Origin: a bacterium
GTDB lineage: Bacteria; Zhuqueibacterota; Zhuqueibacteria; Zhuqueibacterales; Geothermadaptataceae
Length of the DNA stretch: 37,271 nucleotides
Reading direction: 5' to 3'
NCBI GenBank assembly: GCA_024275575.1
Contig: JAJRYV010000092.1
Coordinates: forward strand, 1-37,271
The translations under genes and the position numbers were made by a program. Of the stretch, positions 18,448 through 19,002 are shown in pieces; position 1 is the stretch's first letter, and the number at the start of each line of letters is the position of its first letter. The notes below the pieces were generated by a model. The model did not search any database and had not been told where the DNA came from. It worked only from the letters and a program-made list of their open reading frames with translations.

Positions 18448-18479
18448 AAAAAAAAGGCCTTTCCGCAATGGAAAGGCCT
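18448..18479 (-). terminator. Intrinsic terminator of proximal leader (attenuator 2)
   Basis: On the minus strand AGGCCTTTCC and GGAAAGGCCT form a perfect 10-bp stem around a 5-base loop, followed by eight U (18455-18448). It sits 28 bases before the metY start and after the proximal leader frame. A terminator between a leader frame and the start of an operon in the same direction is the hallmark of attenuation. Confidence 0.9.
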
Positions 18480-18518
18480 GGTCACTCTTGCAAACGAATC
18501 TCACTCCGTTTCATTCAT

Positions 18519-18632
18519 TTAACCCTTTCCATAAAATGATACTTTCATCATACACATGCACATTCGCATTGTGAAAATACCATGGGAAAGACGCATTGCT
18601 TCTGCCTGTGTTGTGATGAAAATTGTTTTCAT
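18519..18632 (-). CDS. Proximal Met/Cys-rich leader peptide upstream of metY
   Basis: A 37-residue frame starts at ATG 18632-18630 behind a strong AGGAG with 8-base spacing, and ends at TAA 18521-18519. Seven of its 37 residues are Met. The run MRMCMCMMK occupies residues 22-30, giving codons ATG CGA ATG TGC ATG TGT ATG ATG. The last codons, for YGKG, contain GGAAAGGG (18530-18523). This segment is complementary to CCTTTCC in the 5' arm of the terminator at 18476-18470. A ribosome stalled on the Met/Cys run would leave it free to pair and prevent termination; a ribosome reaching the stop would cover it. The pairing is read directly from sequence and the regulation is inference. A metal-binding peptide is a less likely alternative. 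Confidence 0.82.
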   Translation of the reverse strand: MKTIFITTQAEAMRLSHGIFTMRMCMCMMKVSFYGKG

Positions 18633-18660
18633 AAAAAAATCTCCTGTTTGTTGAAATGAT

Positions 18661-18767
18661 TTTTAGTATGATTTCGGTATATAGGCCATCAGGGGCATTG
18701 ACGTAACCCTGACAGGGTTTGGAACCCTGTCAGAGTTGCACCGCAGTCGTATTTGCTAATTAAAACC
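18661..18767 (-). promoter_or_regulatory. Spacer between the two attenuators; possible internal promoter
   Basis: No gene is present between terminator 1 and leader 2. The minus strand contains TATATA at 18683-18678, which could serve as a -10 for an independent start of leader 2. The matching -35 (TTACGT, 17 bases upstream) is poor, so an internal promoter is only a possibility. The segment also carries a palindromic repeat. Confidence 0.3.
18705..18737. repeat. Palindromic AACCCTGACAGGGTT-type repeat
   Basis: CTGACAGGGTT at 18709-18719 is the reverse complement of AACCCTGTCAG at 18723-18733, with a 3-base loop. The flanks AACCCTGACAGGGTT are themselves nearly palindromic. Short GC-rich palindromes like this are dispersed in many FCB genomes. 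It lies between terminator 1 and leader 2 and would fold in the leader RNA. Confidence 0.6.
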
Positions 18768-18802
18768 AAAAAAAAAGCCTTTCGAATAGTCGAAAGGCTT
18801 TT
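18768..18802 (-). terminator. Intrinsic terminator of distal leader (attenuator 1)
   Basis: On the minus strand AAAAGCCTTTCGA and TCGAAAGGCTTTT form a perfect 13-bp stem with a 4-base loop, followed by a nine-U run that overlaps the end of the stem (18776-18768). It begins 24 bases after the stop codon of the distal leader frame. No protein gene lies between it and the second leader, so it cannot be the end of a normal gene. Confidence 0.88.
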
Positions 18803-18825
18803 GTATTTTCAATTTTTATTTCTAT

Positions 18826-18921
18826 TTATCCAGAGCGCCTTCCGAACATTTTGCTGTACTGACACATACACATGCACATGCTGATCATGATGGCGATGTT
18901 TTTAATGTTCAGTTGGTTCAT
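18826..18921 (-). CDS. Distal Met/Cys-rich leader peptide
   Basis: A 31-residue frame runs from ATG 18921-18919 to TAA 18828-18826. It encodes MCMCMC at residues 15-20 (codons ATG TGC ATG TGT ATG TGT), with further Met at 12 and 25: six Met and three Cys in 31 residues. Near its end TTC GGA AGG CGC contains CGGAAGGC (18844-18837), which pairs over eight positions, one of them G-U, with GCCTTTCG in the 5' arm of terminator 1 (18798-18791). The gap from the Cys/Met run to this segment is 17 bases, against 15 in the proximal leader. Sequence outside the Met/Cys run differs strongly from the proximal leader, so the shared features appear selected. The ribosome-binding site is weak (AGAAAG). Confidence 0.78.
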   Translation of the reverse strand: MNQLNIKNIAIMISMCMCMCQYSKMFGRRSG

Positions 18922-18974
18922 TTTTCGGCTTTCTGAATATTTATAAGGCACTTTTTTAAAAATTAATCCCAATC

Positions 18975-19002
18975 AAAATAAACTTTTGCTGATGAGAGTC
19001 AA
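18975..19002 (-). promoter_or_regulatory. Candidate promoter for the leader-metYX transcript
   Basis: On the minus strand TTGACT (19002-18997) and TATTTT (18980-18975) are separated by 16 bases. They match the sigma-70 consensus at 5 of 6 and 4 of 6 positions. Transcription would begin near 18968, about 47 bases before the distal leader start. It is a prediction by eye. The region to 19180 also has to hold the promoter of the divergent adenosyltransferase gene. Confidence 0.5.

Follow-up and report, generated by a model that had tools for sequence, protein, structure and literature searches.

Methionine operons are usually reported to be controlled by riboswitches, T-boxes or repressors. The window analysed here, a stretch of 37,271 nucleotides from a genome of the phylum Zhuqueibacterota, holds two short reading frames rich in Met and Cys codons upstream of metY, each followed by a U-tailed hairpin. 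This locus raises the question of what controls metY-metX and what two such units in a row might do. On computational evidence, we consider it highly likely that metY-metX is controlled by two ribosome-mediated transcription attenuators in series, and this supports the original prediction of translation-coupled attenuation at tandem leaders.

Two leader units upstream of metY

As predicted, the two units stand head to tail, with both frames, both U-tailed terminators and the complementarities at the ends of the frames present within 18448-19002 on the minus strand. The features of the region are as follows, the leader elements in their 5' to 3' order on the minus strand (promoter, ORF 1, terminator 1, palindromic repeat, ORF 2, terminator 2, metY).

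From 19181, plus strand: divergent cobalamin adenosyltransferase gene
18975-19002, minus strand: sigma-70-like promoter of the metYX leader transcript, TTGACT-16-TATTTT (consensus scan; near-identical in the congener G001)
18826-18921, minus strand: leader ORF 1, translated as MNQLNIKNIAIMISMCMCMCQYSKMFGRRSG up to its stop codon (G001 orthologue MKPLNIKSIASLINMCMCMCQCIKMFGRRSG)
18862-18879, minus strand: control codons of unit 1, ATG TGC ATG TGT ATG TGT (MCMCMC)
18837-18846, minus strand: predicted antiterminator segment of unit 1, TTCGGAAGGC (duplex prediction; identical in G001)
18802-18773, minus strand, with U-run to 18768: intrinsic terminator 1, AAAAGCCTTTCGA-CTAT-TCGAAAGGCTTTT (-16.7 kcal/mol; kept in G001)
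18706-18735, minus strand: inter-unit palindromic repeat, CTGACAGGGTT...AACCCTGTCAG, lacking a U-run
18641-18645, minus strand: Shine-Dalgarno-like AGGAG of leader ORF 2 (from sequence)
18519-18632, minus strand: leader ORF 2, translated as MKTIFITTQAEAMRLSHGIFTMRMCMCMMKVSFYGKG up to its stop codon, without a counterpart in G001
18546-18569, minus strand: control codons of unit 2, ATG CGA ATG TGC ATG TGT ATG ATG (MRMCMCMM)
18524-18533, minus strand: predicted antiterminator segment of unit 2, TATGGAAAGG (duplex prediction)
18479-18455, minus strand, with U-run to 18448: intrinsic terminator 2, AGGCCTTTCC-ATTGC-GGAAAGGCCT (-17.0 kcal/mol)
17091-18419, minus strand: metY, O-acetylhomoserine sulfhydrylase (TIGR01326), Bacteroidota-type sequence, ATG at 18419
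16049-17164, minus strand: metX, homoserine O-acetyltransferase (its score passes the NF001209 cut-off but not the TIGR01392 one)

Besides the leader ORFs, no gene lies between the adenosyltransferase gene and metY, so the claim that no gene separates the units holds. Unit 1 has six Met and three Cys codons (M6 C3) and unit 2 has seven and two (M7 C2). In the predicted duplexes, the unit 1 segment forms 9 bp, one of them G-U, with its terminator's 5' arm, GCCTTTCGA, and the unit 2 segment likewise forms 9 bp with the 5' arm CCTTTCCAT. Terminator 2 ends about 30 nt before metY. The leader promoter is upstream of both units and a consensus scan finds no promoter-like site between them; with a single promoter, both terminators must be passed. 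Transcripts starting below both terminators had been named as a point that would count against attenuation, and the promoter is found above them instead.

The palindromic repeat at 18706-18735 is probably not part of the switch. One more close copy (93%) occurs in the genome, at G000:C116:195762-195791. Palindromic intergenic repeats of the CTGACAGGGTT/CCTGCCAGGATT type are also seen at L005, about 1440-1490, and both species of the genus have one immediately after terminator 1. Elsewhere in the window, at 13540-14638, a gene for an ECF-type sigma factor is followed by a zinc-finger (zf-HC2) gene that is likely its anti-sigma factor.

The arrangement is not readily produced by chance. Among 1000 dinucleotide-preserving shuffles of the leader, none gave terminators of equal strength and none gave an ORF/antiterminator/terminator unit; counting terminator-like sites alone gives no significant excess (5 observed vs 4.3 expected). 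Across the 4.96-Mb genome, ATGTGYATGTGYATG occurs in two places only, which are units 1 and 2, and the looser TGYATGTGYATG matches at one further site, within a longer reading frame that resembles cytochrome oxidase. Two other origins were considered and rejected: an assembly duplication, as the unit sequences differ too much, and terminators serving a plus-strand gene, as no plus-strand gene ends there.

Our detector found the same leader at none of 68 other loci, with the limit that it needs at least three Met/Cys per 12 residues and pairing with the 5' arm and would overlook such units as G016, G021 and G069 have, described below. Among these loci are the regions upstream of other PLP enzymes of Cys/Met metabolism, the surroundings of metH-type genes, which encode an S-methyltransferase domain, and 30 of the window's genome's 155 MxMxM sites. 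No such leader was found upstream of 80 metY genes from Bacteroidota, Cyanobacteria and others, among which there is one weak two-Met candidate (L115) that also has a SAM riboswitch.

Leaders before metY across the phylum

Conservation in relatives had been proposed as a check on the original prediction, and Met-rich frames with complementary segments are indeed kept. In a sample of 82 genomes from the phylum, 30 have a MetY orthologue at E <= 1e-120, and eight, including the window's (G000), carry a Met-rich short ORF, a complementary segment and a U-tailed terminator before metY, giving nine units. The seven further genomes, from four families, are G001, of the same genus as the window's genome; G003, of the same family; G016, G021 and G026, of the same class; and G066 and G069, which belong to the same phylum outside that class. 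A sigma-70-like promoter precedes the leader in six of these seven. It is near-identical to the window's in G001, and by eye it takes the form TTGACx/TTGCAT-N16-17-TAnnTT before the leader ORF in G003, G021, G016, G069 and G066; before the G026 leader no promoter could be made out by eye.

Every relative has Met codons in its leader; G016, G021 and G026 have no Cys codons there. The leaders of G016 and G021 have just two internal Met codons before the segment, the smallest number of Met codons leaving the segment free in any unit. The closest comparison is with G001, whose leader ORF differs from that of unit 1 at 12 nucleotides, making eight non-synonymous and two synonymous codon changes. 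None of these changes falls in the 45 nt that comprise the Met/Cys run and the stretch from the segment to the stop codon (P = 2.5e-4). With no change in run and segment and mostly non-synonymous change elsewhere, it is the codon pattern and the RNA that are held, and not the peptide.

The tandem is seen in the window's genome only and is thus not a conserved trait of the lineage; G001 has unit 1 alone, nearly identical. No copy of unit 2 was found elsewhere in the genome, and it has no counterpart anywhere we searched. Apart from a 15-nt core, the two units have little sequence in common (local alignment score 31, vs a best of 29 in 500 shuffles), and their common descent is possible.

Neighbouring genes vary. 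Other metY genes of the phylum (L224 in G023, L225 in G036, L011 in G038) have, by eye, an Rrf2-like regulator gene directly upstream and no leader; in G036 the order is Rrf2-metY-cysK-metX (assignments by eye). In the native leader-bearing clade (L217, L218, L220, L222) an aspartokinase-like gene (MKVLKFGGTS...) follows metX, and none was seen there in the window's genus, both by eye.

Fit of segments to terminators

If each segment serves to keep its own terminator from folding, the two should match within a unit better than between units. The own pairs of the nine units sum to -244.6 kcal/mol, vs a permuted mean of -173.7 kcal/mol, and swapping segments and terminators among the units does equally well in only 6 of 362,880 permutations. 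Shuffling the segment of a single unit gives p = 0.05 for unit 1, 0.03 for unit 2, 0.05 for G026 and 0.32 for G066; with the first three marginal and the last not significant singly, the argument rests on the whole set. The mode of pairing is not uniform: the segments of G003, G069 and G066 pair chiefly with the loop plus the 3' side of their terminators, those of the other units with the 5' arm. Spacing is regular, with the last permissive Met/Cys codon, meaning one at which a ribosome leaves the segment free, 13-26 nt upstream of the segment in all nine units.

A ribosome footprint modelled as reaching from 14 nt behind to 12 nt ahead (trailing edge -14 nt, leading edge +12 nt) leaves the first base or bases of the unit 1 segment exposed when the ribosome is at the stop codon. 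Three states were folded. With a ribosome at the stop codon the terminator alone forms in 9/9 units. With a stalled ribosome, pairing of segment and terminator is the first fold, arising before the 3' arm is made. In ribosome-free RNA the segment is 44-83% paired, nearly all of it with upstream leader RNA. The antiterminator duplexes of the window's units are modest and, at equilibrium, less stable than the terminators, so antitermination there would have to be kinetic, as is usual for attenuators. A Met-rich ORF, an intrinsic terminator, a predicted, mutually exclusive antiterminator whose first segment follows shortly after the control codons, and conservation with co-variation are thus all found, and on these sequence features the leaders would be placed among leader-peptide attenuators.

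A Bacteroidota-type metYX under probable leader control

The genes behind the leader have a different affinity from those of its kin. MetY trees place the window's genus within a highly supported Bacteroidota group, and the other six leader-bearing MetYs make up a separate clade of their own. The window's MetX is likewise nearer to that of Bacteroidota, at up to 57%, than to that of its kin, at 39-44%. Judging by these comparisons, the metYX genes of the window's genus are of the Bacteroidota type, a feature that the original prediction missed.

A SAM-I riboswitch (RF00162) lies upstream in 13 of 20 metY loci tested, mostly of Bacteroidota. It is found in only 6 of the 82 genomes of the phylum, and in neither the window's genome nor any other leader-bearing genome. 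In one relative within the phylum, two tandem SAM-I riboswitches stand before a threonine-synthase-like gene, as assigned by eye (L209, G065:C179:89000-92200, at 1642-1766 and 1840-1963, minus strand).

Because its MetY is of the Bacteroidota type and most metY genes of that group have a SAM-I riboswitch, the metYX of this genus appears to have changed its control device. Leader control seems to have been gained either by replacement of the native metYX behind a resident attenuator or newly; alternatively, an unsampled donor may already have carried the leader. We tentatively suggest, at somewhat less than even confidence, that a same-input tandem attenuator, in effect two sensors of charged tRNA, took over a Bacteroidota-type metYX, with direct sensing of S-adenosylmethionine giving way to sensing of Met-tRNA charging by way of translation, and with one species gaining a second unit that tightens the switch.

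Proposed mechanism and alternative readings

Our computations establish the anatomy of the units, their departure from chance level, their conservation, the co-variation of segment and terminator, the spacing and the position of the promoter; from these we infer ribosome stalling, antitermination in the cell and multiplicative action of the two units. Given ample Met-tRNA (and Cys-tRNA), the ribosome would reach the stop codon and cover all or most of the segment, the terminator would fold and transcription would end. When charged Met-tRNA is scarce, the ribosome would stall in the upstream Met/Cys run and leave the segment free to pair with the emerging 5' arm of the terminator, and RNA polymerase would pass. 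Without any ribosome, the segment would be partly held by upstream leader RNA. Since a single promoter feeds both terminators ahead of metY and the units read nearly the same codons, the pair would form a same-input AND gate, in which total readthrough is the product of the readthrough at each unit. Such a gate would give lower basal expression and a steeper response, instead of separate Met and Cys inputs. Besides the modest duplexes, the weak single-unit shuffles, the variable mode of pairing, the exposed start of the unit 1 segment and the two-Met leaders of G016 and G021, two points weigh against parts of this model: methionine starvation should also slow initiation at AUG, and the AND-gate step rests on one genome, in which a weak promoter may lie between the units.

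The strongest competitor, which we still regard as unlikely, is that a single unit is active in this genome, its neighbour being either a duplicate in decay or a recent gain of little effect. That G001 has unit 1 alone, that unit 2 lacks a counterpart in any search and that little sequence beyond the run ATGTGCATGTGTATG is common to the two would all suit such a history. However, both units are intact, with strong terminators, 9-bp complementarity and correct spacing, and unit 2 has a good Shine-Dalgarno sequence; moreover, one promoter serves both, so each terminator needs passing. The original prediction had also allowed for a two-input gate, with one unit sensing Cys and the other Met. Cys codons do occur in both runs and their numbers differ slightly (3 vs 2), but the same mixed run, with the identical core ATGTGCATGTGTATG and a near-same codon make-up, stands in both units, and the relatives that lack Cys codons keep Met throughout. 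With the same amino-acid input in both units, two separate inputs are improbable, and we set this part of the prediction aside in favour of the same-input gate.

The remaining readings dispense with translation as the signal. Stable terminators right behind short ORFs can end small RNAs, as is generally known, and those seen here might be constitutive, or might form the 3' termini of small RNAs or of genes for small proteins, with no attenuation at all. We give this slightly less credence still: the terminators sit between the promoter and metYX with no other gene there, the ORF ends fit their own terminators across genomes, and the peptide drifts while codon run and segment stay. Least probable of all, in our estimate, is an undescribed riboswitch or protein-bound RNA governing the terminators. 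It would be in keeping with the SAM-I control of related metY genes elsewhere, but no Rfam family matches the window at the gathering score of its covariance model, and what recurs among the leaders is Met-rich frames at fixed spacing, not a common structure. Two ribosome-mediated attenuators in series thus remain our preferred reading.

Relation to known systems

The classical amino-acid leader-peptide attenuators are those of the trp, his, leu, thr, phe and ilv operons of enterobacteria. The leaders before metY resemble them (for trp see also PMC3641672) in having a short ORF rich in codons for the end product, a U-tailed terminator, a biosynthetic operon downstream and a segment near the end of the ORF that competes for the terminator. 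They differ in their Met control codons (with Cys in some members), in the metYX operon, in belonging to another phylum, in the loop and 3'-side pairing of some members, and in the two units in series.

Tandem attenuators have been described in the Salmonella mgtCBR leader, where the units sense ATP and proline and lack hairpins like those of intrinsic terminators (Lee and Groisman 2012, PMC3641672). There too, a single leader holds two units, with two short ORFs and alternative structures for each, but here both units read the same codons, so that different signals are not found, and each has a U-tailed terminator. The tandem riboswitches of Bacillus clausii metE likewise place two sites of termination one after the other upstream of a methionine gene, but they are aptamers for two different ligands, SAM and B12, and lack leader peptides (PMC3641672). 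A comparative study of Actinobacteria (Seliverstov et al. 2005, PMC1262725) describes Cys leader peptides upstream of cys/cbs operons and reports that no RNA structure was found ahead of methionine operons. These leaders share with ours the runs of sulfur amino-acid codons in short ORFs before sulfur-metabolism genes; they differ in using Cys only and, in mycobacteria, in having no conserved terminator hairpin, with Rho suggested instead (PMC1262725). The SAM-I riboswitch (RF00162) of Bacteroidota precedes the same gene, metY, in the closest MetY relatives, but its aptamer, absent from the window's genome, senses S-adenosylmethionine directly.

Leader-peptide attenuation is thus an already known kind of control. 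Our search of open-access literature turned up no published case of a leader-peptide attenuator that depends on Met, which is weak evidence, as subscription literature falls mostly outside that search. The devices placed before metY, a leader attenuator in eight genomes or an Rrf2-like gene in this phylum and a SAM-I riboswitch in Bacteroidota, offer a natural comparison. The tandem offers a test of whether the response to starvation is sharpened by two successive terminators that share one input, and also of how a cell can sense methionine with a reading frame whose own start codon needs methionine.
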